Assembly (NCBI RefSeq): GCF_019649055.1
Contig: NW_026570257.1
Location: 62,001 to 126,000 of the forward strand
DNA length: 64,000 bases
Direction of reading: 5' to 3'
Origin: Paramacrobiotus metropolitanus
Taxonomy: Eukaryota > Tardigrada > Eutardigrada > Parachela > Macrobiotidae
Positions 1 through 43,727 of the stretch are shown in pieces. A program made the position numbers and the translations under genes. Each line of letters opens with the position of its first letter. The first letter of the stretch is position 1. The notes under the pieces are model-generated. The model was not told the DNA's origin. It did no database searches and was given only the letters and a program-made list of their open reading frames with translations.

Positions 1-4
1 GCGG

Positions 5-685
5 ATGGGCGCAGTCCTCGAAGACACGCCAAGAACCGAGGAGTCGATGAATATCGATAACGACAGCAGAGCCATCACCGACTATATGGCCAAACTCCAG
101 TCATACCTGACTACAGGAATGCCGGCAAACATACAGCAACTGGACGCGATCCGAACAAGGATGCGGAATGCCCAAAACCGAATGAATCGGTACCCCCAGC
201 TTCTTCAGAATTTGGAAGCAGCCGAACGCCGGTCATCAGCCGTACCGATGCCCACATTGGCAGATGTACGGTCCGCCATCCAGACAGGAGACCGAATCCT
301 CGACGGATTAAGGATGACACAAGGCGGGGATATAGTGGCTATTACAAACAGAGCTCGGATGGTGAACGACCTGCATCGGAGCCTAAGAGTCGCCCGCCAA
401 CTGGCAGAACAACACGGCGGCATAACCACAGACGATCAGGCCATCCGACTAGATATGCATTACCGAAGGATTCAACAGATAATCCAGAGCTACACAGGTG
501 GAGCCGAACAACAGGTCCCCCAGCTCAGGTACCATGCTATGGCACTGCAGATAGGACAGGATGACCAGACGACAGAAGTCTGGAGAACTATCCTCGATGG
601 CAAACAAGCCCTCCAAGGAATCTACGGACGCATAGCTGACGGAATCCGAGACCCCCCCCGACTTAGATCCAGTTCGGAAAATTAA
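5..685 (+). CDS. Unidentified helical-repeat ORF, segment 1 (5' end outside window)
   Basis: Open from the window edge, 226 codons, so the true start is probably upstream. I do not recognise the protein. It is highly charged and predicted mostly helical. Two stretches, about residues 88-160 and 190 to the end, follow a loose pattern of I/L-x2-G-x2-L-L-x2-I, then an Arg/Leu-rich helix, then a third helix. The same pattern recurs many times in the ORFs downstream. The frame ends just after a run of eight C at about 652-659, and the next frame continues without a stop from that point. The repeat unit interrupted here is completed in the following ORF, so the two are probably one protein. Composition is T-poor, unlike the AT-rich DNA beyond 14 kb. 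Hairpin 249-262 lies within it. Confidence 0.6.
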   Translation: MGAVLEDTPRTEESMNIDNDSRAITDYMAKLQSYLTTGMPANIQQLDAIRTRMRNAQNRMNRYPQLLQNLEAAERRSSAVPMPTLADVRSAIQTGDRILDGLRMTQGGDIVAITNRARMVNDLHRSLRVARQLAEQHGGITTDDQAIRLDMHYRRIQQIIQSYTGGAEQQVPQLRYHAMALQIGQDDQTTEVWRTILDGKQALQGIYGRIADGIRDPPRLRSSSEN

Positions 686-2744
686 CGATCTCATAGCCCA
701 CATAGGGCTAACTGAAGATCTTACTCGGTACGGTTTACCCACCACAGAGGTGGACAAACACCGACTCCGAACAGCCATGGATCAGGTGAAGACGGCCATT
801 GTGGCGGAGAAACTTCCGATCCAACAGACGGATAACGCCCAACCGTCGACGTTACCACTTGGAGCCGTCGTGACCTCACCGATATCGTCACCTCCGCCAC
901 CGACCACACGGGTCGACAACGGAGCACAACCGTCGAATTCCCAAGTATTCGACCCGGCACGACTCCGGACGCTCGAAAGCTTGAAACGGAGGCGGGATGA
1001 CGCAATCAATCAGTCCAATGCCATGAAGGAACGGATGCAGAACCTCCCAACAAGCGGAGCCGACCATCCCCAGCAGTTCCAAGTCTTGCTGGACCAGTAT
1101 AAAGAGGCGTCTAATCGCCATATGGAACTCGACAAACTGATTCAAGTCGAGCAACAGATGATTCAGTTAACGGCGACACCACGGTCGCCGAGGACCACAC
1201 AGGCCCTAGCGACACCAGCCGTGGACGGGGAGAAAACATTCGCCGACGCGAAAGCCGCCCTACAAGAGGCGAAGAAAATTTTAGAGAAGATACGCGAACG
1301 GTCGCGACAAGGCCTTGAACGGTTAGCCCTCCAGAAGATAAACGATTTCACAACTCACATAGAGTTAGTAGAAACCTTAGTCCAATCGGGACTGCCACAG
1401 ACGGAGGCACACCAACGGCTAGTACAGCCAGGAGTTGAGTTACTGACGAGGCTCAACGAAGAGCATCGTGAGATCTTAACTTTACCGCCGACGACGACCA
1501 CACAGGCCGCAACGTCGAAACCCCCATCACCCGACAGGACAATTCTTTACGCCGAAAGCGCTATAAAAGAGGCAGAGAGCACCCTAAGGAGGATTCAACA
1601 ACGCGCCGAGAAAGGGCTCGAGTCGAACGTCCAGGGGATCGTCTCTGAGTTCAACACTCACATACAACTTGTGAGGAACCTGATACAATCAGGCAAAGTC
1701 GAGGCGGGAATACAGTTTCGACTCGTAATGAACAGTATAAGCCAGCTGCAGGAATATGAACGAAACCAACGCCGGCCAGCGTCACGGAGTCAACAACGAC
1801 CAGAGGATTCTGATGCGGAAGCTTTGGATGCACTACCGTCGACCTCATCGGCGGCGGAGATGCACTCGGCGATGCGGAAAAGCCGCAGAGAAAAGATGTC
1901 CTCCATAATCAGTGATGGATGGGACCTACTGGAAGACCTCCAGCGAACCTTCGTGCAGAACACACCAACTGATGCGGAAACTTTAAGAGTGGCACGGCAG
2001 AAGATGAGCGATCTTACGGCTTACCTGAAGAAGGCGGACGACCTCATCCACAGGGAGGAACCGACCGATGTCGACGAACGACAACTCAGGTCGGTAGTTG
2101 AACGAATCACAGAGATTCTCAACGCAGAACCCGAGTACATTCGGATTGCCACACCGTCGCCACCTCGCCGAGCAGCACCGACTACGACAGCGGTGATGAC
2201 TCTAGTCGGCACGACGCCTATGGATAACCTACCGGCCAACTTGGACATAATTACCCAAGCCGGACAGGACTTAGCCGACATTTATTTCCACCGACTTAGT
2301 GGAACTCTAACGGAACAAGAAGAAACTGACCTTACCCGAGTTGATCGAGCCTTACGACTCGAACTTGACTGGGCCGATACTCTAGGCTCATGGGGAACCC
2401 CTCCACCAGGTCCCAACCGAGATCGACTCGTCGAAGCGCTTCAGTCGGTAATCGACCATGTCAAGCAGTACTTGGCAAACCCGAACAAAGCGGGAGCGCC
2501 AGTACCAGCTCGTGAGAAAACACCTTCTCCAGTCCCATCACCCGGACTTGACGTTGAACTCCCATACGCCGACAATGCGGTCGACCAGAAGGAAGTCGAT
2601 ATCGAGGAAGTCGAAAACCAATACCGAGAAGCGGTCGACGTTATGGAGAAGCTCGGAAAACAACTCCGGGAGCTCGACCCTAACAACGCCATGGAAAAAC
2701 AAACATCTGCTCCAAGCGGGTCTAGGATTTGTGGAAAATCTTAG
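660..2744 (+). CDS. Unidentified helical-repeat ORF, segment 2
   Basis: Frame open from about 660 to the TAG at 2742-2744; the first in-frame ATG is at 777. No family recognised. Two clear internal repeats of about 75 residues are encoded at about 1240-1480 and 1550-1770: both start with an acidic/Ala helix, share F-x-T-H-I-x-L-V-x-x-L-(I/V)-Q-S-G, and end in a third helix. Looser copies follow at about 1900-2130 and 2240-2490. Pro/Thr/Ser-rich linkers separate them. No catalytic motif or membrane segment is visible. Hairpins at 694, 739, 901, 1192, 1352, 1489 and 2104 lie inside the coding sequence. The downstream ORF takes over in the -1 frame within 2726-2744. Confidence 0.65.
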   Translation, partial: DLDPVRKINDLIAHIGLTEDLTRYGLPTTEVDKHRLRTAMDQVKTAIVAEKLPIQQTDNAQPSTLPLGAVVTSPISSPPPPTTRVDNGAQPSNSQVFDPARLRTLESLKRRRDDAINQSNAMKERMQNLPTSGADHPQQFQVLLDQYKEASNRHMELDKLIQVEQQMIQLTATPRSPRTTQALATPAVDGEKTFADAKAALQEAKKILEKIRERSRQGLERLALQKINDFTTHIELVETLVQSGLPQTEAHQRLVQPGVELLTRLNEEHREILTLPPTTTTQAATSKPPSPDRTILYAESAIKEAESTLRRIQQRAEKGLESNVQGIVSEFNTHIQLVRNLIQSGKVEAGIQFRLVMNSISQLQEYERNQRRPASRSQQRPEDSDAEALDALPSTSSAAEMHSAMRKSRREKMSSIISDGWDLLEDLQRTFVQNTPTDAETLRVARQKMSDLTAYLKKADDLIHREEPTDVDERQLRSVVERITEILNAEPEYIRIATPSPPRRAAPTTTAVMTLVGTTPMDNLPANLDIITQAGQDLADIYFHRLSGTLTEQEETDLTRVDRALRLELDWADTLGSWGTPPPGPNRDRLVEALQSVIDHVKQYLANPNKAGAPVPAREKTPSPVPSPGLDVELPYADNAVDQKEVDIEEVENQYREAVDVMEKLGKQLRELDPNNAMEKQTSAPSGSRICGKS

Positions 2745-5275
2745 AGGCTAGCCCACAAAGGGCTCAGCCGACGATTACTCAGCCGATCCCTCCGCAACAA
2801 CCACCAGAGCCCACATTGGCACAACAGCGCGAAGCCCTTAACGAGAAGTTGGCTCGCACGCGGAGGATTGCGGATAGCCTGCAACGCCAAGTCGACTGTA
2901 TGGACGGAACAGATCCGACCATCCGTAACATTCGGACGGCAATCGAAGATCAGATCCGAGTCTCTCAAATGCACATCCAAGACGTGCAGGTCGATCTTGA
3001 AATCTTACGGCGGAAGGAACTCGAGGAATACCGGAAAGCGGAACAACACGCACCCAGTACGCAACAGCCGACCACTCCGAGTCAGCCGACTTCGACAACA
3101 GCTCGGATTCAACTTCAGCCGACCTCAACAGTAGGACCGGCCCAACCGAAACCGATGGAAGTGGCCGACCGACCCATGTCTCCGGCCACGGAGGCTCGGA
3201 TCATGGAAGCCGTACCGGACACGGACGAACTGCCGAGTACGGTCGCGCCACACATAGTCAAACTATTGGCTAGAGTAGCGGAACTCATCACAGAGATGAG
3301 GGCCCGCAGAAATTTCTGCGAAGAAAATAGCCAAGAAGCGAACGACCTGGACCGAGACATCTTGGCGTGGGGAAACAATGCCCGGTTTATGCGACGACTC
3401 TGTCATCCGGACGCCCCACAAACGACTAGGACTCGGCAACATTTAATACAAACCACTTCATGGTTGGAAACAAGGGTGAACGAATATGAGGAAGAGAAGG
3501 AACGGAACAAGGAGCAGGAATCGACTAGCCTGGCAACGAGCGCCATGGCCGAAGGTCGGCCGTCTTGGATCACAAAGATCCAGTCGGCTCGGAAACCAAA
3601 TTTCGATTCTGTCCGACTTCCACCTCCAGCCCCACCAGCCAAACCCGACCTTGAATGGGTAAAAGCAGTTAACACACAGTTACTGCGAGCGGACGCCGTC
3701 ATCATTGAACTTCGAAAGATGATGGACGAAACAGACCAACGGAGTCCGCAATATTGCCAAATCGACATCAATCTCGGACACTTGGAAAACAACACCAAGG
3801 AGGCCCGATTTATCCTACGACCAACAACAGTGTGGTCGGCAAAGAATCAGGAGCGGCTGCAAACCTTGACGGCCATAATTCAATCCTTCTTAGACGATTT
3901 CTGCAAGCGGAAGGAAGCAGAAGAGCAACGTAAGCTGAAGAGGCCGCCCTCTGCTAAGAAGCCTAAGGTACAATCTGTCAAACCAACGCAGAAAGTCTCA
4001 CCGGTCAGTCACCAAGACGACCCGATGGGCGATGTACCAGTACCAGGGCTTGAAGGAGAAGACGAACCCATGGATACGTCGGAGGAAGTCGGAACGACGG
4101 AAGTTAACCGACCTCGAACTGAACCTAAGCCCCTCGAACGACCTACTACTTTGCCTGGGCTCTCACAAAGAGAACCTCAGAGCGAACGAATCGAGGAGCA
4201 CGGACCACGCAGGCGCCTCTTCCCGACCAAGTCGCCATCACCGGTCAGAACCAAGGAACGACTCTTGGAAATCCTAAAGGCGACTCCTCCCAACCTACCA
4301 CCGGCTGAAGAGAAGCCGAGTCCGACACGGAAAGTAATGGGAGCAAAAGCCCTGTTCACTCCGGCCGTACATAAGAAGTTAGTCGGTCAAGCCAAAACAC
4401 TAGACCTCCAACGGATACTTTACGAAGCACAACTTCAAGGAGGTATCCGAGACCGGACAATGACTGAAGAGCAACAGACTCAAATGGCCCAGAAGATCCA
4501 CGCTACGATCCAGGATAGAGACAAAGTCCTGAGACGGTTGGTGACTCTAAGATGCGGAAAGCAGGAGTTACGACAACTCCCGCTGGATTCGAACATGATC
4601 CAGACGATTCAACGGCTCCGCAATCCTAGCATTAACCCAGGTGCCTATACGCTGGAAATCCAACCTCGGCCCGGAGAGGAGGTTACCGAGAAGATTCCGA
4701 TAACAATGTCGGATAGTAGCGAGGATGAGGAGAATGCGGACAACATTGACTCCGACGACTCCACTCACCAAAAGGCCGCGGCACTACCAAAGGGAGCAAC
4801 GCCGAAACGAGGCAGATCGCCGGTAAAACAAATTACACCGACCCGATCAGCATCCCAGCCGACCAAGCTGCCAAGTCAACCGACGATTGAGAAACCACTC
4901 AGGTTCTCACCTCGGAATACTCCGACGAAACCGAAGAAAAACGAGGAAGTAATGGACACAACATCCCCCTCGGAAGCGCGAGTCGGAATTACGGTCGAAA
5001 CGTTACCACAAAGGGACGAACCGACCTCCATTCACTCCGGTCCACGTCTAACAATAGATGAGTCTCGAACGAACGAGTCGGTAAACGAGTCGGTCAACAT
5101 ACCGACTAAACGGAGTGCGGTCAAGGAAAAACCACCTCAGGACTCGTCGCGGGAATTCCACGACGACCCGGCCTTACTACATGTAAAGGACCTGACGAGG
5201 TCGGAACAGGATGCCTGCATCGACATGGTCGGCGCGACCACGACCGACTTACCGAGAAGATGGCCGACGTTATGA
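2726..5275 (+). CDS. Unidentified helical-repeat, Pro/Ser-rich ORF, segment 3
   Basis: Open from just after an in-frame TAG at 2723 to the TGA at 5273-5275. There is no ATG near its beginning (the first in frame is about 55 codons in), so it is more likely entered by a frame change from segment 2 than by its own initiation. The N-terminal third is coiled-coil-like. Two more helical repeats lie at about 3250-3480 and 3650-3910. The rest is disordered and charged, rich in SPSP/PTKP-type linkers, with an acidic stretch around 4710-4760. No known domain is recognised. Hairpins at 2746, 3284, 3566, 3665, 4161 and perhaps 5001 lie within it. Confidence 0.6.
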   Translation, partial: DLWKILEASPQRAQPTITQPIPPQQPPEPTLAQQREALNEKLARTRRIADSLQRQVDCMDGTDPTIRNIRTAIEDQIRVSQMHIQDVQVDLEILRRKELEEYRKAEQHAPSTQQPTTPSQPTSTTARIQLQPTSTVGPAQPKPMEVADRPMSPATEARIMEAVPDTDELPSTVAPHIVKLLARVAELITEMRARRNFCEENSQEANDLDRDILAWGNNARFMRRLCHPDAPQTTRTRQHLIQTTSWLETRVNEYEEEKERNKEQESTSLATSAMAEGRPSWITKIQSARKPNFDSVRLPPPAPPAKPDLEWVKAVNTQLLRADAVIIELRKMMDETDQRSPQYCQIDINLGHLENNTKEARFILRPTTVWSAKNQERLQTLTAIIQSFLDDFCKRKEAEEQRKLKRPPSAKKPKVQSVKPTQKVSPVSHQDDPMGDVPVPGLEGEDEPMDTSEEVGTTEVNRPRTEPKPLERPTTLPGLSQREPQSERIEEHGPRRRLFPTKSPSPVRTKERLLEILKATPPNLPPAEEKPSPTRKVMGAKALFTPAVHKKLVGQAKTLDLQRILYEAQLQGGIRDRTMTEEQQTQMAQKIHATIQDRDKVLRRLVTLRCGKQELRQLPLDSNMIQTIQRLRNPSINPGAYTLEIQPRPGEEVTEKIPITMSDSSEDEENADNIDSDDSTHQKAAALPKGATPKRGRSPVKQITPTRSASQPTKLPSQPTIEKPLRFSPRNTPTKPKKNEEVMDTTSPSEARVGITVETLPQRDEPTSIHSGPRLTIDESRTNESVNESVNIPTKRSAVKEKPPQDSSREFHDDPALLHVKDLTRSEQDACIDMVGATTTDLPRRWPTL
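2746..2769 (+). other. Hairpin just downstream of a reading-frame change
   Basis: Nine base pairs in two blocks (2746-2749 with 2766-2769, and 2750-2754 with 2760-2764), loop ACAAA, one unpaired C at 2765. It starts seven bases after the AAA codon at 2736-2738, where slipping back one base would move a ribosome from segment 2 into segment 3. Slippery run, short spacer and stem is the layout of -1 programmed frameshifting, but the run is not a canonical heptamer. Confidence 0.5.
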
Positions 5276-7014
5276 AACGCATGGGAGAACATTACCGGGT
5301 GGAAAAGAGCCGACCTAAAGCACTACAAGTGGCTACGCCGACTCAACATAAAGCTACCGCCCCGGAACCCAAGTCGACCAAGAAGACGGCACAACAACCC
5401 GTCAAGATGAAAGTTCCCCCTCCGACTAGGCAACCTTCCGTCCAGATCGATGAAGATCTCGACGCGAGAGTCATCAACTCGGCTAACTCCGCGAAATCCC
5501 ATAAGGATAAACGGAAGGCCAAGAAAGAAGCAGCGAAACAGTCTGTCAAGCCGCAACCGACGGAAACTCAGAAGAAACCCATAAAGTCGGAAGCCAAGGA
5601 ACCGGCCAAACCGAAGTCGGATTCTACGGTGAAGACGCCGAAGCCTAACCCGGCTAAACGGCATAAGTCATCCGACGATTTGGACACCTCGGACGCCGGC
5701 CCACAAAGGACCGAGCGGAAGGAGAACGCTCAACAACCGCACGATAAGGAGGCGGTGGAGCGTAAATTTAAGGAAGTCATGGAACGAACCGGCACAAAGC
5801 CGGCTAAGACTTCAGGAGGTCGGCTACGGAACCCACCAAAACCGCCGACTCCGAGTGAACAAACTCAGCCCTCCACATCTAAGCAACAGTCTGATGTGGA
5901 ATCCGATCATATCTCGGACATCGAGGAAAAGGACTCAATCTCCGACCATGGAGAAGGAGACCCATATGAAGGATTTAAGGGCGACCTGAAAGAAATGTTT
6001 GACCACGGAGCGGACACTGACGAATCACAGTGGCCAGCCCCAGACGACGTACGTGAGCGTCTTCCGGACGAACAACCGGACGACCCGGTCGAGACATTAA
6101 TCCGCACCGTCCGAGTACACGTGGAAGTCGTACGGAGCATCGAAAACGCCAGGAAAAACGGCGCGGACATTTATCAGTCCTTGGTCCGAGACTTGTCCAA
6201 CAACATCCAAGTCGGAGGCGAAACCGGAAAATGGTTAACGCATCAACTCATGATGCAGATCGTCGTCTGGACTCTGGATTTCGGATTAGCAGTCGCCGTT
6301 CACCGACAATGGGGACGGATGGCCGAACTGCTCCCACCAGACCTCATTAAAGCACTCCGAAGTGCAGCCGCAAGAAACGCGGACGATACACCGACTAGAA
6401 TTGCGCGGTGCATCGGATACATTCGGAACCCTCGCGGATCGACATTGGTCCAAATTGCCCGTGTATATAACGTGATGTACATGGACAAAAAGGGCAACAT
6501 CGACGATATCATCAGCCATATAGAGGGTCGAATCGAAGAACTGGTCGCCGCACATGAAGAACTGGTGGCCGCCGCAAGAACTGGTCATACTCTTCAGACG
6601 ACTAATGCGGAACGCGACGTACCGGTAAGGTACACCGTGCCTAACTTCATACCGGAACAACATCGGCGTGAATTCAACCTCCGGATGTCGTATGTCAACA
6701 CTGACAAGCCCCCGGCTGGCACGGAACCTACCGAGGAATACAGTGATTCCAACGAACAACCGTCGGAGGACGCAGCCGCTTTGCTTCATATAGCTCGTAC
6801 GGCTGGACAGTCATCACAGAGACGAGTCCAAGTCCTACCACGACCTCGAGCGCCACATGAACCGACAACATATGTCGGCACGGCATCAGCTCCAGCGGGA
6901 CGAGCAAGCACGGCCAAACCAACTCGGAGTGCGAAAGGACGGTTCATTCCGAAGGATGTACAACCACTTCACCGTCCTCGCCAATGGAAATTTCGCCGGA
7001 ACCGGAAGACTTGA
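5260..7014 (+). CDS. Unidentified Lys-rich ORF with helical C-terminal domain, segment 4
   Basis: ATG at 5260; the preceding ORF's stop overlaps another in-frame ATG (ATGA at 5272-5275). The frame is already open upstream to about 5110, so either reinitiation or a frame change could feed it. Residues 1-230 are disordered and Lys/Pro/Ser-rich, typical of a basic nucleic-acid-binding or scaffolding tail. Residues about 270-460 form a compact helical domain with conserved-looking Trp residues and a short Gly/Lys loop, followed by a disordered tail. No catalytic motif and no family assignment. Hairpins at 5697, 5789 and 6862 lie inside. The next frame (-1) overlaps the last 31 bases. Confidence 0.55.
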   Translation: MADVMKRMGEHYRVEKSRPKALQVATPTQHKATAPEPKSTKKTAQQPVKMKVPPPTRQPSVQIDEDLDARVINSANSAKSHKDKRKAKKEAAKQSVKPQPTETQKKPIKSEAKEPAKPKSDSTVKTPKPNPAKRHKSSDDLDTSDAGPQRTERKENAQQPHDKEAVERKFKEVMERTGTKPAKTSGGRLRNPPKPPTPSEQTQPSTSKQQSDVESDHISDIEEKDSISDHGEGDPYEGFKGDLKEMFDHGADTDESQWPAPDDVRERLPDEQPDDPVETLIRTVRVHVEVVRSIENARKNGADIYQSLVRDLSNNIQVGGETGKWLTHQLMMQIVVWTLDFGLAVAVHRQWGRMAELLPPDLIKALRSAAARNADDTPTRIARCIGYIRNPRGSTLVQIARVYNVMYMDKKGNIDDIISHIEGRIEELVAAHEELVAAARTGHTLQTTNAERDVPVRYTVPNFIPEQHRREFNLRMSYVNTDKPPAGTEPTEEYSDSNEQPSEDAAALLHIARTAGQSSQRRVQVLPRPRAPHEPTTYVGTASAPAGRASTAKPTRSAKGRFIPKDVQPLHRPRQWKFRRNRKT

Positions 7015-8213
7015 CCCAACAGAAGGGAAAGTCAAAGTCGACCAAGACGAAGTCGACCAAGCCGGTTAAGAAGAAAGAACCGAAGTCATCCGAGCTGATC
7101 TCGTCGTCGGAAGAGGAAACCGACGACGATGATGACGACGACGAAGATTTCCAAACACCTGGGAACGGGTCACCAAAGGATGACGACGATGACGACGATG
7201 AGAACGGTAAACCCCCACCACCGTCGAACTCGGCACCTCAACAGCAGGGCGAACCGGAGATACCGGACAAACAACTCGAAGAAAAGGACAGCGGCGACAA
7301 AGCCGATGACTCCAAGAGTAACGAGGACAACGGTGGGGTATACATCCCTCGTAAGTATGGCCAACGGATATCACTGACGCCCGACTCCGAAAACCAGCCA
7401 CTCCGCTTCGACTTCCATGAAGATATGATAAAAGTCTTGCCGGACGATATTCCCCCACTGGCCAACGTAAGGCTTAAGTATACGGGCATCAAATCAGCTT
7501 CAAAACCGAAGCCAAGCGTCTCGGAATATGACGCGGGATGGATGTATACGTTTGCTGCGCTAAAAGCCCTTGCGACAAAGAGACCGAAGTTCGCCACGCC
7601 GAAGATCGCCTTTAAACTCCTCCAACATTGGAAGGTAGACGAAAAGGGCGACTGGCGACAATTGAGTCAGAACAACGTACGTCATTACTGTGACCTGGGA
7701 TACCACGCAGGGAAGATAATACGTACATACACCAGCGGAAAGCGGATGTATTACGAGTTTCCCCCGGCTCAGAGAGATCCGGCCCCTTCGACATACGAAG
7801 GATGGATACATGCCATCGAAGCGTGCATGGGAATGTCTTGGCATCCGGAAGGATTAACCCGTGGAGAAATCCTCCACCAACTTACAGCACGGTTCGAGTT
7901 TGAATGGAAAACGGCGGAACCGCAACTAGTCGACCCCAAGTACAAGGCTAAACCAGACCCGACCGCCGGACGGAAGAAATACTCCCTGGAAGACGACTTG
8001 GAGTTCGTCTTGGAAAAAGGGCTCGCCCAACAACGGTTTGCCACAAATACCGATAAAATTCAGGGTGGTCAACGGTTCATTGCCTTAAACCCATCAACTC
8101 ACCGTTATGGACACTTACCGAAAGAACGATCGACCTCGGCACAATCAACCGAGCTGGCTGACTCGCACCAAGCAAGTCGGCCAGAGTCGACAGAAGCACC
8201 CACCCGGGAATGA
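6984..8213 (+). CDS. Unidentified acidic ORF with possible winged-helix units, segment 5
   Basis: ATG at 6984, stop TGA at 8211-8213, 409 codons. Residues about 1-110 are low-complexity: Lys/Ser/Thr first, then Asp/Glu tracts. Residues about 150-270 and 270-390 look globular. Each has helix-helix-strand character ending in an aromatic 'Y-x-F/F-I-A-L'-like hairpin, which could be two winged-helix-type domains; that is inference from pattern only. No catalytic residues are recognised. The stop lies one base before a good splice donor (GAG|GTAACG, GT at 8215), so the 3' end may be mis-framed. Confidence 0.55.
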   Translation: MEISPEPEDLTQQKGKSKSTKTKSTKPVKKKEPKSSELISSSEEETDDDDDDDEDFQTPGNGSPKDDDDDDDENGKPPPPSNSAPQQQGEPEIPDKQLEEKDSGDKADDSKSNEDNGGVYIPRKYGQRISLTPDSENQPLRFDFHEDMIKVLPDDIPPLANVRLKYTGIKSASKPKPSVSEYDAGWMYTFAALKALATKRPKFATPKIAFKLLQHWKVDEKGDWRQLSQNNVRHYCDLGYHAGKIIRTYTSGKRMYYEFPPAQRDPAPSTYEGWIHAIEACMGMSWHPEGLTRGEILHQLTARFEFEWKTAEPQLVDPKYKAKPDPTAGRKKYSLEDDLEFVLEKGLAQQRFATNTDKIQGGQRFIALNPSTHRYGHLPKERSTSAQSTELADSHQASRPESTEAPTRE

Positions 8214-8214
8214 G

Positions 8215-8430
8215 GTAACGCAGAATGCGTTGGAAGAGCGGCATAACCGACCTTCTTCCATTGACGACCACACAGGCGTCATCGACCAACAGAAGCCGAC
8301 CTACCTCATAGACGACCACAAAGGCGTCTTGGACCAGCTCGGGAACCGACCTGGCCCGACCGTAGTAACTATAGGGTGTAAACTTATAGGACGCAACCGA
8401 GAAACGGTTTGCTTACTTTTGTTTTGACAG
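8215..8430 (+). other. Candidate intron or inter-ORF spacer carrying three loop-family hairpins
   Basis: Begins GTAACG and ends with a pyrimidine-rich stretch and TTTTGACAG, so it has both ends of a GT-AG intron. Its length is 216 bases, a multiple of three. It contains hairpins 8263-8280 and 8310-8329, both built GACG-A-CC-loop-GG-CGTC with loops ACACA and ACAAA, and hairpin 8393-8412 with loop AGAAA. If the region is a genomic RNA or a retrotranscribed copy there would be no intron, so the splicing reading is tentative. Confidence 0.35.
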
Positions 8431-9393
8431 AATCGACCGGAAGCTTATACGGTGGACTGCCAACAGTGCACGGATAACGCGACGCGAGACAACAACAGAT
8501 TGCCCTGCGCACTATGCATCGTATCTTTTACGAACGAACGAGTCACCGGCACCGGAGCGCAACACCGAGCTCAGGCGGCGGCACTTTACCTAAATGTTGT
8601 CGCTGGTAACCTGAGTGCATACCGGTATCTGGCCGGCAGAGAATACCTAATTAACCAATTGGAGTCACACGAACAGGATAACTTGGCCACAATCCAGCGG
8701 CAACGAACCCGCGATCCTGCATGGCAAGAAACTCGACCACCAGTCTTAACAAATAGACTGTTCGAGTATCGTCAGATGCTGGACCTGCAGCGTCAACTGG
8801 ACGACCAGAAGAAAATCAAGGAGGTTGATAGACAGATCGCCACAATGCGAGTCCATCCACCACCGACCGATTATGAACCGGAAATAAAGATTCGGGTACA
8901 GACACCCACACAGGGTCTCCCAACAGCCGGAGAGTTGATCCCCACAATACGCGATGTCTTCGTCGGAGATCCAAACAGACCGATGACAGGCGCATCTATA
9001 ACAATGATGATGAATATGCCGGACGGAACTCAACAGCCAGTTACTTTTACACCGGCAACTCAGGAACAGTTGATGGCAGTCCCACACAGGGCAACGCCAG
9101 TAGTCACACAGGCTCGTCCAACTGTTTCTCAGCATATTCCTCAATCTGGAACTCATGGAAATCGCAATCAACCGGCAGCTCAACAACAGCAGCGCCGGCC
9201 GAGTAAGAACCTCGCGGGACATGACCTTCGACATAGGATCGGTCCGGTCGATCTTCGAGACAGAATCGAAGAGCAACGAGACAGAATCGAAGAGCATTCG
9301 ACAAACCGGAAAAGAGCCAACCAGAGCTCCACCAGGAAAACGGACTGGATCTGGAGAAACGGGAATCGGACTTACGGTCGACTTAACAAATAA
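8431..9393 (+). CDS. Unidentified ORF with N-terminal CxxC pairs, segment 6
   Basis: Open from the codon after the stop/acceptor at 8428-8430 to 9393. There is no ATG near its 5' end, which fits an internal exon better than an independent gene. The first 40 residues contain two CxxC pairs about 13 residues apart, which could bind one zinc ion. A coiled-coil-like, Gln/Arg-rich stretch and a Pro/Thr-rich linker follow. No known family recognised. The final third, from about 9200, looks like the wrong frame, and the overlapping segment 7 reads better there. Hairpins 8741-8760 and 8901-8919 fall within it. Confidence 0.45.
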   Translation, partial: NRPEAYTVDCQQCTDNATRDNNRLPCALCIVSFTNERVTGTGAQHRAQAAALYLNVVAGNLSAYRYLAGREYLINQLESHEQDNLATIQRQRTRDPAWQETRPPVLTNRLFEYRQMLDLQRQLDDQKKIKEVDRQIATMRVHPPPTDYEPEIKIRVQTPTQGLPTAGELIPTIRDVFVGDPNRPMTGASITMMMNMPDGTQQPVTFTPATQEQLMAVPHRATPVVTQARPTVSQHIPQSGTHGNRNQPAAQQQQRRPSKNLAGHDLRHRIGPVDLRDRIEEQRDRIEEHSTNRKRANQSSTRKTDWIWRNGNRTYGRLNK

Positions 9394-10717
9394 GTCGAAA
9401 CGCAATTTTGTCCCTCCCGAACCGCAACCGGAAGCTCAACAAGTGGAACCGGCGGCTGAAGTCCAAGCTGAACCAGCAGCTCAACAAGAGCAAATGGACG
9501 TCGACGTAGCCGACCAGATGGCACAATTGCCACAAGTGGAAGCGCCGATCCGAGAAGACCCTCGCTACGATCGAGCTCGACAACAGGGAATCGAGGTCGT
9601 CATGCTGCACCCCACTGAACGGACGAACCACATTATGAATGTTATGAATTACGAGGAACGGAATCGACCACAGATTTGGCGGATGGTAGAAAACCTTCGT
9701 CAATTCCTCGTCCGATCTGGATATCAGACGCTGTTCGAGCAGCATCAGTGGCGATCCGACTTCAACATGAACGCGCACACAGCGCCGAATGTTGAACACC
9801 CATACACCAGATCGAACGCGTTACCATCGATGACCGACCCGGTCCTGCTGAATGTACCACTTTACAGTCCGGACGGAACGCGTGCGAGCCAACTAGGAGC
9901 TCGGGAATACTCCCATGACGAGTTGGAGAGCATTGCCCAGTTCGTCATAACGGACGCCCATCCAGCCTTCGTAATCACCGCAGCTCGGGCAGCACTGGAC
10001 TTAACCCAGCATCTCCCGGGAGGGGAGATCGATATGGCCCAGGATGGAGTCGCGGCATTCCTGCGATTCATTTTCGCAGCACGGCTTAGCAATTATTTCT
10101 GCAATTACACCTTGTACGGACTGTACCAAAACGAAATGATACCAGCGGCCTTGGAAACCATCGTAGCCCAACTTGACACGCCAATGAGAAGTGTTATCCT
10201 CGCCGTCTGGATGCGCGACTTGCTGTACACCCACGAACGGTATGCGACAAAGTATGCCTTTCGTGAGGATCACGTAGATCCCAGCGACGACGCAACTCGA
10301 TTCATCAGCTGGTACCGCGAGAAGAAGACTTTGCCTAGCGGATTTAACTCGTCGCCTTACGAACCTTGGATGTCGGACGACATAGCACCCGGCGCACGAC
10401 CATACGCGCTGAGGCTCCGTAAACAAGCGGCCAGGGAATCGAGGAAGGGCAGAGCGGATCGCTCCGGTCAAGAAACGGACGAGACCGACGAGACGTCTCA
10501 ACGAGTGGCCGGCAACTTACAGACCAAGGATCAAACATCCGGCCACATGACCGACCTCGCCCGGACGACGAAGAGGATGAAGATTACTTCGGCGGCGACA
10601 AACCCGTCGAAGTCCCACTCAGCTAAGATCGAGTTCCCACATTGGAACTCGATCCCCCACTTGGAACAACTAAGGGGACTCAACGCCGAGAAACGGCACG
10701 GTCGAGAATCGACCTGA
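9155..10717 (+). CDS. Unidentified ORF with large helical domain (capsid-like size), segment 7
   Basis: ATG at 9155, TGA at 10715-10717, 520 codons. Residues 1-130 are disordered, with an exact repeat of 19 bases at DNA level (around 9255-9295) and a Pro/Gln/Ala/Glu-rich stretch. Residues about 130-420 form one globular, mainly helical domain with many Trp, Tyr and His residues, of a size seen in Gag or nucleocapsid proteins. I see no zinc knuckle and cannot claim homology. The tail is basic and ends inside the AGAAA hairpin array. Hairpins 9773-9785 and 10627-10654 (11-bp perfect stem) lie in the coding sequence. This is the last ORF of the unit. Confidence 0.6.
   Translation: MEIAINRQLNNSSAGRVRTSRDMTFDIGSVRSIFETESKSNETESKSIRQTGKEPTRAPPGKRTGSGETGIGLTVDLTNKSKRNFVPPEPQPEAQQVEPAAEVQAEPAAQQEQMDVDVADQMAQLPQVEAPIREDPRYDRARQQGIEVVMLHPTERTNHIMNVMNYEERNRPQIWRMVENLRQFLVRSGYQTLFEQHQWRSDFNMNAHTAPNVEHPYTRSNALPSMTDPVLLNVPLYSPDGTRASQLGAREYSHDELESIAQFVITDAHPAFVITAARAALDLTQHLPGGEIDMAQDGVAAFLRFIFAARLSNYFCNYTLYGLYQNEMIPAALETIVAQLDTPMRSVILAVWMRDLLYTHERYATKYAFREDHVDPSDDATRFISWYREKKTLPSGFNSSPYEPWMSDDIAPGARPYALRLRKQAARESRKGRADRSGQETDETDETSQRVAGNLQTKDQTSGHMTDLARTTKRMKITSAATNPSKSHSAKIEFPHWNSIPHLEQLRGLNAEKRHGREST
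10627..10654 (+). other. Longest perfect hairpin of the CACATT-loop group
   Basis: Stem 10627-10637 pairs without mismatch with 10644-10654 (11 bp); the loop 10638-10643 is CACATT. It lies in the last codons of segment 7, about 30 bases before the AGAAA array. Confidence 0.8.
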
Positions 10718-10761
10718 CTGAGAAACAGTCTAGCTGAGAAACAGCACCGTTGAGAAACGAC
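10685..10761 (+). repeat. Tandem array of five hairpins with loop AGAAA/AGAAT
   Basis: Five consecutive hairpins, each with a stem of four or five bp: GCCG/CGGC (10685-10697), GGTCG/CGACC (10700-10714), GACTG/CAGTC (10716-10730), GCTG/CAGC (10733-10745) and GTTG/CGAC (10749-10761, one G-T pair). Loops are AGAAA except the second (AGAAT). The stems change in a compensated way while the loop is kept. The array spans the end of the last ORF, with the stop at 10715, and its 3' flank. A related single hairpin with loop AGAAA is at 8393-8412. I know of no RNA family with this layout. Confidence 0.8.
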
Positions 10762-13430
10762 TTTGGAAGGGACACTTTTCTTTCGTTTTTTCACAGGAAC
10801 CGATTAAACATGTATGCCGCGGATGTCGACAACGACTTTGCCAGAGAGCTGACTACACAAGTTAGCCGGATTCTTCGGTTTGACCCGGACACGGGTGGTT
10901 AGACCTGACAAGCCGGCTTTTTCCACCGTTCCGGTACGTCTTCCGAGGAATCCCCTGGAATGAACTGAGCAAACCGACCTCAGTTCCCCAGCATGGCATG
11001 AACAGATCGTGAACCACGTCTGCTAACATAGCAGATCGCAACCACGTTCTCCGACCATCGGAGCCAACAGAAGCCTCAATCCGCGCTACATGGAACGAAG
11101 ATACTCCGGCCAACCGACGGGCATGAACCGAGAGGATTACGCTAACATGGCGCTGAATACGTCGCTGCGTGTTCACCGCCATGTTTGCCGAGCACCCGTG
11201 GCCAACTACGGAACCGGGTAGCCGAGCAGCCTTCACCAGTGTAAACAGCGGACATCCTCGGCCGAGTCGCCAACAGTGCAGGAAAACTCGGATCTGACTA
11301 TATGTACTCGAGCCGACCACAAAGGTCGACTTTGTACTTTGCCCATAACTTGAAGACATTACGGACATAGCAGCAGGCTGACCACACAGGTCGGTTGCGC
11401 AAGCCGACCACACAGGTCGGCTTTGGAAATCGAAACGGCCAAAACAGTAGCCGACCAAGAAGAATGGACGGAAGCTGGCAGTAGTCACGTGGTAACTTCA
11501 CCGGATTCTCCGTTTGAACCCAGATCTACAGGAACTCAACTAGGAACCTGTACCCGGAGTCCAACCGCAGTCTCCCCCGGACGATATCGGGTAAACCAGC
11601 CGATTCACCGGTGACCACGACTACGCGCGTCTCGAACGTGCAGCCATTCCCTGAAGAGGAACAGCGACGGTGATTTGGCCGCCACTCCAATGACTCCGCC
11701 GCGACCTGCTTCCCCATGTCTTCTATGGAACATCCTAGGCAGACCGGATTAGAATACCCGACCTGCACCCCTTCAACAAACTCCGCTGGCGACGACCGCC
11801 TGCCCGCAACAGTAACGGTCAGTCGGCCTTCGTCAGCGGCAAGAAAAAATCTCCCCGTGGACGTGAGGTGTCTACCCCCAACAGAACGGCTAGGCGTCTC
11901 AGGTTCGCGGCAAAAAGATGATGGAAGAATCGGATCTGACGACCTCAGGGACTTGCATGTGCATGAAGCTTGAAACCAAAGAGCTCGACTCGGCAACCAG
12001 GGCCACAAAGACCCTTAACGTTGTAAGCGAGCACACTTGCATGACGGAGTCACTCGGCCAACAGATGCCAGAAGAAATTGTGACCGCGCGGGACTCGGCC
12101 GCCCGGAGGCATGACCAGCTAACAGTAGCTCGGATCCGACCCAGAGTTCTTGTCAGGAATCACAGAAGGAACGGAGTTGTGCTGCCGAACATCCTTCTGC
12201 CAGTCAAACACTGACCGAAGGATGTCCGAACAACGGAGACCCGGTCAACTGTAGCCGGACGCACAGAACTCCTAGGAGTAGGTCGACTTGATGAACGCCG
12301 ACTAGCCCCACATTGGGCGTGACGGTACAAGTCTTCCCAACCGACCTCAAATCGAAGATCGGAAGTGACCCAACGGAGGTCGGCAGCACACGGTAACAAG
12401 TCGGAAGGGAGCGATCAGAAGAAGTCGGAAATCGACTTCCCGGCGGAACAATTCAGCTTTTTGACGGGTGAACACAAAGTTCATCTGACCTCGGGGAAGT
12501 CGGACATAACCGACCTTAGATGAAGTAATAACCGACCTCGAACGGAGGTCGGTAGTGGCCGAACAGAAGTCGGAAGGATGCGACAACAAGTCGGCAAAGG
12601 TATTTGGAAGTCGAGAACCGACCTTCTAACGGAAGAACCCACCTTTCGGACGGATGAACACACAGTTCATCCGACCTTCCGAAGCCGACCATAACCGACT
12701 ACAAGTCGGAAGTTGGAAACTCGGCCAACATGACGGGAAAGACTGATAGCTATCCGCGATGGACGAATTCGACTTAAAGGAACTTGTTTAGCCCTACATG
12801 GGCATGTTATTGCAGGTTCACCCTAGTCGACCACCGGCGGATAGGCTGACCGACCTTGACTACAGGTCGGATGGGATAGCCGACCTCGAATAGAAGTCGA
12901 CTTGACACTCCCATCGAAGGAACTCTATTTCCCACGGACCTCGAGCCAGTTCGACTCGGATAACTTCAAACCAGGCTCGTGGTAGCAGATTGAACGGTTG
13001 TAACCGACCACTTTTCGAACGGAACCGCTGTACATGACGACCACACAGGCCGCATGACTTACATACAGCTTTTTCCGACCTGAACTTTAGGAATTCGGAA
13101 CATAGCCGAATTTCCCCAGCCGCCGGTCGACTTACCGGTAGGCCGACCTTGGTCAAAACCGACCCTGGTTCTATTCCCCATTCAGAGAGGATGCCTCGGC
13201 ATTTGCAATTGCAACAGTGCCTCTCTATCCCTGACGGACGGATACGAGTCGGAAGTAAGTGTTTAACCGTGCTTATCCGACTTCGGTGAATGTAACCGGT
13301 TACGACGGGTAACTCGGGAACCGATGCCCCGGACCCAGCCCTACCGGATGAGAAGTTGACAGGAGACCCCGTGGAGACTCAACTGCCCCGTGGACGTCAT
13401 CCTAGTCGGAATAGGACCCCCGGACAGATT
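10762..13430 (+). ncRNA. Structured, ORF-poor 3' region of the T-poor unit
   Basis: No convincing ORF in 2.7 kb, although composition is the same as in the ORF region. It is full of complementary CCGAC/GTCGG words. Besides the ACANA hairpins (11311, 11375, 11401, 11999, 12305, 12466, 12651, 12791, 13033) there are others: a 9-bp stem with loop GAACG at about 12533-12555, a 7-bp stem at about 12851-12872, and a 10-bp stem pairing 13248-13253 and 13256-13259 with 13272-13281. At 13184-13227 a 7-bp outer stem encloses two smaller palindromes. An acceptor-like TTTTTTCACAG precedes about 10797. It looks like the long structured 3' non-coding part of one transcript. Confidence 0.5.
11311..11423 (+). 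repeat. Cluster of three ACANA hairpins
   Basis: Three family members within 113 bases: 11311-11331 (loop ACAAA, one mismatch), 11375-11397 (loop ACACA, with G-T pairs) and 11401-11423 (loop ACACA, nine perfect pairs 11401-11409/11415-11423). All contain CCGACC...GGTCG-type stems, so these three may be recent duplicates of each other, unlike most of the family. Confidence 0.75.
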
Positions 13431-14340
13431 TTTACATTTTTTTTTAGCATTTTTCCTAACAAACGGAATTGTATTTTTCTAGTTCGATCTCTTTAACAGA
13501 TCTGTTTTGTAACCCCTTTTGCTCACTGGAATTGTGATTAAACTTTATTTCATACTTTCTTTCGCGCTGCATAAGCTTTCATTACATTTTTCTTTCACAT
13601 TGTTCTCCGCTGCCAACAGAAGCAAGAAGCCGACCAACAGAAGCATCACCGGTCCAACGAAACGCCTGAGCGGCTTCCGGATTTCTCGGCCGTGAGTGGT
13701 TTCCACTCATGGGTCTGGAAGTGAAGAAGGGACGGTCAACCAGACACCGGACTCCCATGTTAGAGGACGCGTACCAGCGACCCCACATTGGGTCCGACTG
13801 GAGAGTTGTGTACTGTGCGGTACAGTCGGAGCATCCTTCGCAGGAGCTCGGATTCCCGCCCAGAGGCATGTCAGAGGCCGACTGCGCCTGGTGCGTACTG
13901 CCACACTGGACGTACTTGCACTCATGCTTGCCGTTATCGCTTCTCTGCTGTACGTACGTGCTGCACTGCACTCACATCCGCTGAAGCGGATATACGCAGC
14001 GCACACTGAGCATACTTGCTCTCTCGTTCCTCTCTCGCAGTATGACTCAGCGTTCATACGCTCGCGTTGGATTGAGTCCAGTCTGCGCATCATCACACAG
14101 CTGATGGCTCACAGCGTGCTTGCCGCCAGTTGCTTCTTTCACGCGATCAGACGCTCAAGAACCCCTTGGCAATCACTTGCCATTAGCCATCAGTGCTTTG
14201 TTCTTGCTTTCCTGCTATCACGCAGTACTTGTTCCCCCTTTATTTGTACAATAAAGATCACTCGTTATCTCCTCGTGCTTGTCTGGTACAAAACAATAGC
14301 TACGTACGGATATAGGCCTCTGTTTAAAGTAGTAAGTAGT
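13431..14340 (+). other. Probable 3' end of the T-poor unit, LTR- or terminator-like
   Basis: Composition switches to T-rich at about 13431, then back to mixed GC at 13600-13860, where the last hairpin (13779-13794, loop CACATT) lies. An AATAAA is at about 14250, followed by a GT-rich stretch, as in R-U5 of an LTR or a normal poly(A) site. An LTR beginning TGTT near 13600 and ending near 14290 is possible. The partner copy would be outside the window, so this cannot be tested here. The ORFs in this stretch look like chance readings. Confidence 0.35.
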
Positions 14341-15641
14341 AACTGATTTGCAGCGGGAACATCGTATTAGCATGGAAATATTCATTTCTATGTACTGTAT
14401 GTCTTTCCATTTTCTCGTTCTATGAAAAAGCTGCTAAGATTATCCCATGTTTTTCCATATTGATGGACTACCGATGCACCGACAGCGTATGTGATTGTTT
14501 GGTATATTATATTTTAAAACTTTATTATCCCCTTGTGGCATATTTGTCGGCATTAAGCGGTTGCTGATACGGTGCGAAATGCGAACACAGTCAGAGCAAT
14601 CTAAGTTGTGGCTGAACGTTACGCTTACCATTAGCCATAGCAACAACCTACGCACCAATTCCGGCCGGCCCTTTTATAAAGGGACTTCTTATCGCCTTCT
14701 TAAGTGCATCTTATTTCGTATCAGATGCTCACTAAAACATCCGTTCACCGTGCACGCGATTTTTGGATCCTGGGATCCAGTATGGTGCGAAAACAGCTGA
14801 CTCTCTGGGCGGCTGTTGAGGTTTCTAATGTGCCGGCTTGGCCGAAAGTGCACAGAACAGCTGAGAATCTTACTTTACGGTACAGATTGTGCACTTTCGA
14901 CACTCTCCGCCTGTTCCCGTTTTCTTTTAAACGATGCGTTAACGTTATACATAGTAGCACCAGCAAAAACTCGAAAGGAGAATAGTCAAATAGTAGCAAA
15001 TACCGTGTAGGACGAGTCGGGTGATAAATTTTAAAACTAAATAACATGAAACTACTGAGAAAAAGAGTTACAGTACTATTTGTGAGTTACAACGCACGAG
15101 AAGGAAGTTGCACGCGGTACAATTTCGACGCCGGATAAACAGGTAAGTACTGTACGGAGTGCACAAATTTCACCAGTTTAATAACTACGACTATAATAAT
15201 TTAATAACGACTAGGCAAATAAGTAAAATTTTCACACCTTTCATACACTGAAGATTGAGGCAGGCTAAATGTTGGTGGATGGCGGTGCGGTAACATAGGA
15301 AGTTTGTAACGGCAAGTTGGCATCTGGCAATCGGCGGCATTCCGGCATTCACATCTAATAAACCATCTTGTCGTACTTGGCAGCAAGACCTTCGGATTTG
15401 GTACTTCGTTTTTGCCGGCAGGGAAAGCTAAACGATGAAAGTTTACTCAGAAAATTTCGGCACATGACGCTCGATCAAATCGTCTATGGCTTTCAAGTGA
15501 TTTTACGCCGTGCGATCGTTAACAGCGCTGGAGAAAAGGTGTTGGCTGTGCGATTTTAGAAAGAACTTCAAAAGCACTGAAAGTAATGACAGATTTTTAC
15601 AATCCCTATTTTATTTTACAAAAGAAGTGGTTTTCTGATAG
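14341..15641. other. Intergenic DNA, nothing assignable
   Basis: AT-rich sequence with stops in all frames; ORFs under 105 codons show no recognisable domain or codon bias. No RNA gene recognised. Confidence 0.5.
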
Positions 15642-15947
15642 CTATAACGCCCTAGGGCAGGTACCTGAAGAGGGAACGTAGGCGATCCAGTGGGCGTCTT
15701 GGTGATCTTCCGGCCACGAGTAGCACTCGATAAGATTTTTAGCGCCAATAGTTAATCTCCTTATGGTATCTGTCGTATCCACAAAAGTTTCTTCTTGCCC
15801 GTTTTTGAGGATACACCACCGCGAAATTTCCAGGAACAAAAGCGTTATCCTGTTATCTTGCACCTGTACGAAGAATCGCTCCGCTCCCCGAATCACGCGT
15901 GACACACAATATCCGGCTCCGAGGAGGACCAAGCTCATAAACCTCAT
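15642..15947 (-). CDS. Candidate small secreted protein, 101 residues
   Basis: Minus-strand ORF with ATG at 15947 and an early stop at 15642. The first 16 or so residues (Met-Arg-Phe then a Leu/Val/Gly-rich core) look like a short signal peptide. The remainder has balanced composition with four Cys (positions about 14, 45, 75 and 97), Trp residues and no low complexity, which is less random than other short ORFs around. I do not recognise a family. It could be a terminal exon of a larger gene. The upstream minus-strand DNA (15948-16100) shows no obvious promoter. Confidence 0.35.
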   Translation of the reverse strand: MRFMSLVLLGAGYCVSRVIRGAERFFVQVQDNRITLLFLEISRWCILKNGQEETFVDTTDTIRRLTIGAKNLIECYSWPEDHQDAHWIAYVPSSGTCPRAL

Positions 15948-17154
15948 TATCTCATACTGTTCAATTTTTTATTCTTCTATTCGTAGAGGTTGATTTTTTC
16001 TCAATTTTTATGTACTTGTCGCAATAACAAACAGCATCGTTTGCCAAAGCGCGCTGTTTAAGAAGTGCCAGGATAAACACGTGTGTCTATGAGCTTACGA
16101 TGACTACTATCGCTGATTATTAATGAAAAGTTAGTTCGTTAGTTAGGTGACGGCATGACAATTGTCATAACAATGATTGAAGTCATTGAACTAACTCATA
16201 TTAATGCCGTGTGGGTTGCATTGTTCATTTATCAACCGCAGTTGTTGGTTGGACCATCCAAGCTTGGCTGTTACGTCAACAGATTACGGAACTGGTGTTT
16301 AGTTTAACACTTTAACCCGTAGCAGCTAATACATTAGACCGACTCAACCACAATCCTCCTCATATGCGCAGTTCCCTTTATGGCGCACTGCGAAATTCCT
16401 GTATTTAGTTACGTGCGAATCAACGTCTATGGCGGCTGAATAACCAATAGCGGTACCATAGCCGCTACCCGTACCAGTTTTATTGCGACAACCAGCAGCA
16501 GCGCAACTAAGATCACCAGTAGTGCTGCCGCTACTACCACGGGTCCACGAGAACCATTATCCGTATTAAACTAGGTTTTTTTCAGAATATTATAATTACC
16601 GTATGTAGTGTGTATTGGAAGTAAACGTGCATGCAAGTGCAGCGATGTATATTCTCTAGAATGTTATATTTCTCAAGCGATCTAACCGGGAGACACATTA
16701 GTCGTCGTAAATTTAGGGAAGTCTAACGTTTTTGCATAAAAAACTTAGTTTTACCGCTTCTGGCATCTGCCACCTTTTATCGCTTGCCAGAACGCGTAGT
16801 GGCAATTGCCACTGCCGGTGGCAGTTGCCAGTGGCAGGTGCCATTGCCACCTTTTATCCCCTGCCCTAGAAGCTAACATTGTCGTTGTAATGGCTTCCAT
16901 TGTTACGTAGTTGTTAGCTCTTGTTGCCCTGATGGCTGATCGTGCATGTATTATGTACATAACGGAACCTTTTCGGTTTGGTGGATCTACGTTATGTGTC
17001 CTTATGAAAAACTGTTAACTGCGTACCTTGCCAATTTATTCTCAGTTGTGCCAAGTTTGTTTGCTAGTTTTGGCCTGAGCCACTAAAAACTGTGACCCCT
17101 GTTGTTGCTACAACGAGAAATTTTTCGCAGTTATCGTGCTCGCGGCCATTTGCA
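15948..17154. other. Intergenic, with a TGCCAC/GTGGCA palindrome cluster
   Basis: No gene seen. At about 16755-16860 the words TGCCAC and GTGGCA alternate several times, giving nested inverted repeats, and two copies of CCACCTTTTATC lie near its ends. A GACAATTGTC palindrome lies near 16157. These look like remnants of short inverted-repeat elements. Confidence 0.4.
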
Positions 17155-18714: not shown

Positions 18715-18717
18715 TTA

Positions 18718-42034: not shown

Positions 42035-42052
42035 TGGCGCCCAACGGATTTT
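42035..42052 (+). promoter_or_regulatory. Primer binding site, tRNA-Lys type
   Basis: TGGCGCCCAACG directly abuts the 5' LTR and matches the usual complement of the 3' end of a lysine tRNA. Confidence 0.8.
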
Positions 42053-42119
42053 AACAACCCCTGGGAATCTGGATCGTCTGGTAAGTGGTATTGGTTTTTG
42101 GCGTTTTGTGTGGTTGTGT

Positions 42120-43725: not shown

Positions 43726-43727
43726 CG

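Follow-up and report, generated by a model that had tools for sequence, protein, structure and literature searches.

The 64-kb stretch of DNA analysed here as a whole (hereafter the window), which corresponds to contig C37 62001-126000 in the 169.8-Mb genome of the tardigrade Paramacrobiotus metropolitanus, begins with the right-hand half (1-14290, plus strand) of a Ty3/Gypsy-type long terminal repeat (LTR) retrotransposon 30,448 bases long, and this element was found to carry 117 small hairpins with the triplet ACA in the loop (double registers removed). These hairpins lie predominantly on the plus strand, exceed both dinucleotide and synonymous-codon controls, are retained in close copies of the element, and are kept up in number in its relatives. 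We regard it as nearly an even matter that they serve as many binding sites on the genomic RNA for a protein (Gag being the likeliest), which would package and compact that RNA. Under this proposal, RNA rather than the minus-strand complementary DNA (cDNA) would be the folded molecule, a protein would read the loop, that protein would be Gag, and packaging would be the purpose.

The first-pass annotation of the window had described hairpins at 249-13794 that shared the loop ACANA or CACATT, occurred beyond chance, and all faced the same way, and the controls bore this out. In 1-14000, hairpins with the loop ACANA and at least four perfect pairs numbered 21 on the plus strand and none on the minus strand, against a mean of 0.45 and a maximum of 3 in 100 dinucleotide shuffles; with at least five pairs there were 15 against 0.09, and with at least six pairs 8 against 0.02. 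The loop CACATT, which becomes ACATT if the 5' arm is allowed an additional C, occurred four times on the plus strand (249, 10627, 12305 and 13779) and never on the minus strand, and the shuffles gave 0.00. Across the whole 64 kb, 23 plus-strand ACANA hairpins (21 of them within 694-12673) and 3 minus-strand ones (none in 1-14290) were counted, the remainder of the window contributing 2 and 3, respectively. The closing pair was C-G in 17 of the 21 ACANA hairpins of 1-14000, and the four examples quoted in the annotation were all recovered in place. Loop conservation was likewise evident, the ACANA loop being identical in 122 of 134 aligned cases as compared with 433 of 911 for control loops. 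The range had been drawn too narrowly, as the series extends about 16 kb further left of the window, where 17 further ACANA/CACATT hairpins were found. The stems, described as unrelated, are not entirely so: CGACC/GGTCG recurs within 11314-11423 and in copies. Near 11.4 kb, three such hairpins stand in a row in several copies and two in the window copy, an arrangement that points to local duplication as the source of some hairpins. Palindromic mobile inserts were ruled out since the stems differ. A search of the window against Rfam at the gathering threshold returned no match. Upon folding six hairpins with about 20 surrounding bases, five gave z-scores of -2.8 to -5.3 and one gave -1.8.

When hairpins were listed without a preset loop, a wider class defined by at least five pairs, a loop of 3-10 nt and ACA in the loop surfaced in every element piece at several loop lengths, so that ACANA stands as the commonest form rather than as the whole class. 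With 40 shuffles per piece, in all of which the A-rich composition was preserved, window 1-14290 contained 50 such hairpins on the plus strand and 2 on the minus strand, with 8.5 expected on the plus strand; the 50 comprised 15 ACANA, 2 CACATT and 33 others, among which a single hairpin is counted twice, in different registers. The corresponding counts (plus, minus, expected) were 38, 4 and 6.4 in the element piece L009, 31, 1 and 3.5 in part of L010, and, in four relatives, 41, 0 and 7.3 (L032), 45, 1 and 6.8 (L033), 29, 1 and 6.5 (L034), and 25, 1 and 6.3 (L035). No excess was seen in the host flank at 14300-28300 (6 plus, 11 minus, 7.6 expected) or in another Ty3-like gag region at 42000-46000 (2 plus, 6 minus, 1.8 expected). 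Within the latter, window 42292-45056 comprises two open reading frames (ORFs), the second of which matches Ty3_capsid (PF19259, at cut-off), and shows a strong excess of G over C.

Along the whole element, from -16200 to 12600, the density of ACA-loop hairpins was 4-12 per 1.8 kb, and the 117 hairpins fell into the three reading frames as 35, 22 and 33 with 27 outside ORFs, in agreement with the earlier statement that they run through coding and non-coding parts alike. Synonymous-codon shuffles of seven ORFs in 1-10717 gave 9.9 hairpins on average (sd 2.9, max 19 of 100) where 37 were observed. Considering this excess together with the occurrence in all frames and outside ORFs, the ACA hairpins are not a by-product of coding. 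Many hairpins with a shared loop and a free stem thus occur beyond chance, as in dispersed signals of the type known from satellite tobacco necrosis virus (STNV) and MS2.

Among the 64 triplets, ACA ranked first in the perfect-stem count (183 vs 41, registers counted apart), and among triplets with at least 40 occurrences it was the one most often placed in hairpin loops in predicted minimum-energy folds of all five plus-strand element pieces covered (the window piece, L009, L032, L034 and L035); in the host stretch it was not the top loop triplet. Within the loop the triplet is displaced towards the 5' end: it has 0 bases before and 2 after it in 26 cases, 1 and 3 in 15, 1 and 2 in 12, and 2 and 3 in 10, each placement being expected about 0.4-0.6 times; 10 cases with 2 and 0 bases were mostly ACACA counted at its second ACA. 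A is the last base in 24 of the 26 ACANN pentaloops and C-G the closing pair in 21, which gives C[ACANA]G as the leading form, and the fourth base is free (A 10, C 8, T 4, G 4). A second form, A[ACAN]T, was closed by A-T in 6 of 6 cases here and in 8 of 9 in L032 and L033, and the leading class in L034 and L035 was a 7-base loop, mostly C-ACANA-A. METTL16-type sites are UACAGAGAA in hairpins, and this candidate was rejected, as the base before ACA is T in 11 of 119 cases and the base after it is G in 23 of 119. On the plus strand there is also a second, weaker class of hairpins having GAA in the loop without ACA (52 observed, 13.7 in shuffled sequence, and 6 on the minus strand; 1-14290, L009 and L010), whose reader may be the same protein or a different one.

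The persistence of the hairpins was assessed in 10 close copies, out of about 45 that cover nearly all of an ORF of 409 amino acids (aa) within the element, and in four distant relatives. The plus strand of each 10-kb close-copy piece held 13-18 ACANA/CACATT hairpins and the minus strand none; 10 right-hand pieces contained 5-9 and none, apart from one piece with a single minus-strand hairpin. In the four distant relatives, the plus-strand numbers were 7, 6, 3 and 1, again with none on the minus strand. Counts of the wider ACA class remained high throughout. For the 36 ACA hairpins of the 10-kb window piece, retention was compared with neutral mutation of that piece (40 simulations each) in six close copies, 11-15% diverged, and in three of the relatives, the four of which are 27-39% diverged. 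The close copies retained 26 (L012; 9.8 in the simulation), 27 (L018, 14.9% diverged; 6.8), 26 (L024; 6.1), 26 (L026; 5.8), 21 (L016; 5.6) and 22 (L028; 6.2), and the relatives retained 16 (L032; 1.5), 9 (L033; 0.9) and 7 (L034; 0.7). The simulation leaves out indels and mutates every site at a single rate, so the fairer control comes from the remaining hairpins in that piece; of 68 such hairpins, 41 were kept in L012, 19 in L018, 12 in L032, 11 in L033 and 9 in L034. The contrast between the two kinds, tested for L018, L032 and L012, was significant in L018 (p = 8e-6) and in L032 (16/36 vs 12/68, p = 0.005), not in L012. Retention above the neutral level in close copies and high numbers in relatives thus indicated that selection keeps the hairpins in related genomes, as in the STNV/MS2 type of signal. 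Across 15 copies, 161 distinct places of ACA hairpins were recorded, 82 of them in one copy only; some of these singletons probably reflect poor alignment of L020, L030 and the distant rows. The places therefore turn over while the density stays, and the hairpins of the relatives are mostly at other places, L033 having 44-45 hairpins with 9-10 of them in common with the window copy.

On the mechanism we favour, the element transcript would carry the roughly 117 hairpins, in which the stem need only pair and the loop, at best C[ACANA]G, would hold the information. A protein would read the loop, and the many sites on each molecule would provide avidity, by which the 30-kb genomic RNA could be told from host RNA and folded into the particle. 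The most likely reader would be the putative Gag of the element itself. An ORF upstream of the protease, taken for gag by its place and by a CCHC motif (C-x2-C-x4-H-x4-C, a zinc knuckle) read from the translation, is followed by Pfam domains in the order PF13975, PF00078, PF17917/PF17919, PF17921 and PF00665, namely protease, reverse transcriptase, RNase H and integrase, which is the Ty3/Gypsy order. The three closest Pol proteins in the database are annotated for P. metropolitanus itself. An LTR element with a CCHC knuckle in its Gag has to pick out its own genomic RNA, and in this respect the present element resembles retroviruses and Ty3. The known packaging signals of the latter, read by the nucleocapsid, form a small group of hairpins close to the 5' end, unlike the hairpins here, which span the whole length. 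The analogy drawn in the first-pass annotation with packaging signals of RNA viruses was apt, although the carrier is an LTR retrotransposon and not an RNA virus: the STNV coat-protein aptamer B3 is described as a stem-loop with the tetraloop ACAA that is indifferent to stem sequence, and the STNV AXXA signals are likewise short, genome-wide hairpins whose stems are free in sequence and whose loops contain ACA; there are about 30 copies, with the motif in loops of 4, 5 and 6 bases (PMC3593212). STNV, however, is a satellite RNA virus of plants, 1,239 nt long, whose coat protein is a beta-barrel, whereas the carrier here is a 30-kb animal LTR retrotransposon with a putative Gag, and its loop, as judged from sequence, is ACANA closed by C-G instead of ACAA.

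Several observations weigh against this proposal. The copy L012 retains 26 of 36 ACA hairpins and 41 of 68 others (p = 0.28), and the putative gag ORF has no Pfam gag match. Compensation between stem arms, which the first-pass annotation had put forward as a check, was seen only in part, being weak when counted as distinct events and absent from loop forms other than ACANA. In its favour, the 3' base in ACANA stems was changed in 50% of the cells in which the 5' base was changed and in 3.7% of the others, as compared with 21% and 9.4% in control stems; the 35 other ACA-loop stems, however, co-change no more than the controls (14% vs 6.0%). Double-changed ACANA cells were paired in 38 of 44 cases, a cell count inflated by shared descent, and we therefore relied on distinct states, which comprised 7 paired and 3 unpaired double changes with 31 single-sided changes in ACANA stems, 5, 6 and 75 in other ACA stems, and 24, 18 and 255 in control stems. 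The paired fraction (7/10 vs 24/42) thus did not differ clearly between ACANA and control stems, nor did it when far relatives were included (9/16 vs 41/81, p = 0.79), and two hairpins tested singly did not beat shuffles, one of them showing UA, CG and UG at one pair. Furthermore, G.U was not better tolerated than the A.C mismatch (8 vs 33), and both exceeded shuffles equally (43 vs 8.0 for G.U, 96 vs 16.3 for A.C). Considering that an RNA helix of the plus strand should favour G.U, the sequence is silent on RNA as the folded molecule. When the minus strand of the window piece was folded, TGT ranked first, at a lower rate (0.246 vs 0.343). As for the analogy, an in vivo study of STNV weighs against AxxA motifs as packaging signals (PMC6475782).

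Other explanations have to be weighed against binding by Gag. It is unlikely, though worth bearing in mind, that an accessory protein of the element, the product of an orphan ORF downstream of pol, binds the hairpins for nuclear export of the unspliced 30-kb RNA or for a nuclear ribonucleoprotein, in the manner of CERV, the own protein that the LTR element Cer1 needs for export of its genomic RNA and whose RNA target the abstract of PMC10309623 does not name. About 13 kb of ORFs follow pol, and the 409-aa protein among them is 58-95% identical in 7 other copies with its C-terminal half conserved; on the other side, none of the orphan ORFs reached the Pfam cut-off, below which lie only weak matches to PF11757 and HTH_23, and the fold prediction for the 409-aa protein had a predicted local distance difference test (pLDDT) score of 37.7. 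A host protein with an RNA recognition motif, of the RBMY/RBMX/Tra2 or SR kind, is rather an unlikely reader of the loops for export, stability or splicing avoidance. RBMY targets C(A/U)CAA in a stem-loop, a CA-rich hairpin loop like those observed here (PMC7404189), and GAA loops form the second enriched class; the best loop, however, is ACANA with a free fourth base and not the CAA expected in an RBMY or Tra2 loop, the flanking host DNA and the one other element examined, the Ty3-like gag region, showed no such excess, and RBMY and Tra2 are splicing factors for which the texts consulted give no link to retroelements.

The possibility that the hairpins act in single-stranded minus-strand cDNA, with the loop TNTGT, by compaction, nucleocapsid binding or many plus-strand starts appears improbable. 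A plus-strand A.C is a minus-strand G.T, and the former is at least as common as G.U not only in the comparison above but also in L032 and L033 (37 vs 7); a 30-kb cDNA would also be long for a single plus-strand start. In L034 and L035, however, G.U was not rarer than A.C (13 vs 12), and an A-rich plus strand alone predicts about two A.C per G.U; the observed 8 of 41, tested against one third, gave p = 0.07. As for the first rank of TGT in predicted minus-strand loops, Watson-Crick stems pair on both strands, and this rank is therefore expected either way. That no site is read at all, and that mutational bias to A-rich loops plus coding conservation leaves ACA in chance hairpins, is very improbable. 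The plus strand is indeed A-rich (AT skew about 0.26-0.39 in 1-10000), GAA, CAA and AAC loops are also enriched, and hairpins without ACA are in excess as well (214 vs 142.5). Nevertheless, the dinucleotide and synonymous shuffles, which keep composition, give about 4-9 fold fewer hairpins, loop bias cannot create stems, and in L018 and L032 the ACA hairpins have survived better than the rest of the hairpins in their piece, so that shuffles and retention have largely refuted this explanation.

The hairpins of the window and the other features with coordinates are collected in Table 1.

Table 1. Hairpins of the retrotransposon (stem arms on either side of the bracketed loop), the conserved ORF and the LTRs, in window positions unless another piece is named
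Feature	Position	Strand	Remark
TAGCCC[ACATA]GGGCTA	694..710	+	
CCACC[ACAGA]GGTGG	739..753	+	perfect in 8/15 aligned rows, window included
AACTC[ACATA]GAGTT	1352..1366	+	
GAATC[ACAGA]GATTC	2104..2118	+	GGATC/GATCC (compensated) in several copies
AGCCC[ACAAA]GGGCT	2750..2764	+	
CGGA[ACAGA]TCCG	2905..2917	+	
CTCATC[ACAGA]GATGAG	3284..3300	+	identical hairpin letters in relative L033
TGGATC[ACAAA]GATCCA	3566..3582	+	
TAAC[ACACA]GTTA	3670..3682	+	
TCTC[ACAAA]GAGA	4161..4173	+	
CCGGC[ACAAA]GCCGG	5789..5803	+	
CCGACA[ACATA]TGTCGG	6862..6878	+	
CCTTCG[ACATA]CGAAGG	7785..7801	+	CCTTCA/TGAAGG in 10 close copies (compensated closing pair)
ACCC[ACACA]GGGT	8904..8916	+	perfect in 13/15 aligned rows
TCGACTTA[ACAAA]TAAGTCGA	9378..9398	+	in 11/15 aligned rows
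GCGC[ACACA]GCGC	9773..9785	+	
CGACC[ACAAA]GGTCG	11314..11328	+	
GACC[ACACA]GGTC	11380..11392	+	
AAGCCGACC[ACACA]GGTCGGCTT	11401..11423	+	
TGAAC[ACAAA]GTTCA	12469..12483	+	
CGGATGAAC[ACACA]GTTCATCCG	12651..12673	+	folding z -5.3
TGCC[CACATT]GGCA	249..262	+	
GATCGAGTTCC[CACATT]GGAACTCGATC	10627..10654	+	folding z -4.3
GCCC[CACATT]GGGC	12305..12318	+	
GACCC[CACATT]GGGTC	13779..13794	+	in 10/11 aligned rows
33 other ACA-loop hairpins	468..14106	+	at least 5 pairs, loop 3-10 nt; neither ACANA nor CACATT
CCAGAC[GACAGAA]GTCTGG	565-583	+	example of the other ACA-loop hairpins
AGTCGGT[CAACAT]ACCGACT	5088-5107	+	example of the other ACA-loop hairpins
TCTTCGA[GACAGAA]TCGAAGA	9252-9272	+	example of the other ACA-loop hairpins
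TCTGCTA[ACA]TAGCAGA	11019-11035	+	example of the other ACA-loop hairpins
ORF, 409 aa	6984..8213	+	no Pfam match; conserved C-terminal half
5' LTR	L010 3843-4282		paired with 3' LTR
3' LTR, TG...CA	13869..14290	+	94.8% identity to L010 3843-4282 over 440 columns

The whole element occupies contig C37 45843-76290 (window -16157 to 14290, starting at 3843 of L010), its left half, C37 45843-62000, lying in the approximately 16 kb before the window start. The boundaries were placed by the LTR pair, the plus-strand A excess, the pol domains on the left and BLAST matches, those of the 10 close copies stopping at 14285-14291. The LTRs, 440 and 422 bp in length, are direct repeats of the form TG..CA, and TGG... 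follows immediately after the 5' LTR at the predicted primer site. AAAC after the 3' LTR matches AAAC before the 5' LTR, which would represent a 4-bp target duplication of the Ty3/Gypsy kind, although this assignment is uncertain because the left flank is an AAAC repeat. It was also observed that an element of 30 kb carries LTRs of only about 430 bp, and that a strong excess of A over T runs across its plus strand (AT skew 0.19-0.39 in 1-12000) and is absent from the flank.

After pol there are about eight orphan ORFs over the approximately 13 kb, one of which spans the left edge of the window, and searches against Pfam and PHROGs gave no match above the Pfam cut-off for any of them. Below it, ORF 750-2744 showed, over residues 267-309, a weak match that may be due to chance to PF11757, a domain of viral suppressors of RNA silencing (E = 1.1e-4), and ORF 5-685 matched HTH_23 (E = 6.7e-4). 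Counting fragments, the genome holds at least 105 protein-level matches to the 409-aa ORF, which is a candidate hairpin partner solely as an element-encoded and conserved protein. For this protein, the best hit in a PDB profile search (E = 0.43) was not meaningful, and the structure prediction was discarded on account of its low score. A partial homologue (P0008) is labelled "cell surface glycoprotein 1-like" in public records, and the label probably reflects a retrotransposon ORF taken for a host gene. In other copies, open frames around the 409-aa ORF reach up to 3302 aa, so that the row of short ORFs in the window copy is probably due, at least in part, to decay.

In size class, Ty3/Gypsy pol and large extra ORFs, the element resembles Burro, the giant Gypsy-like element of planarians of over 30 kb; the present one has LTRs of 422-440 bp and orphan ORFs without known domains, and the part of the Burro text available mentions no hairpin series (PMC6431247). 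As judged by titles and the beginnings of abstracts, literature searches showed no described case of dispersed hairpins in LTR elements, and those of tardigrade papers did not show this element.

Whether an RNA virus is assembled through one packaging signal or many weak dispersed ones is disputed, one side of the debate being represented for STNV by PMC6475782. The sequence record over copies and relatives now shows selection keeping many dispersed hairpins in a reverse-transcribing element, whose extreme length poses the problem of gripping the RNA at its most acute, and the ACANA loop offers a ready binding assay. We know of no earlier many-site hairpin code in an LTR retrotransposon. It is quite possible, though somewhat short of probable, that the element bears such a code, in which more than 100 interchangeable free-stem ACA-loop hairpins are gained and lost with their density held and one protein grips the whole 30-kb RNA (or cDNA). 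If so, this would be a giant animal retrotransposon with a genome-wide hairpin code, the loop forms of which shift between lineages.

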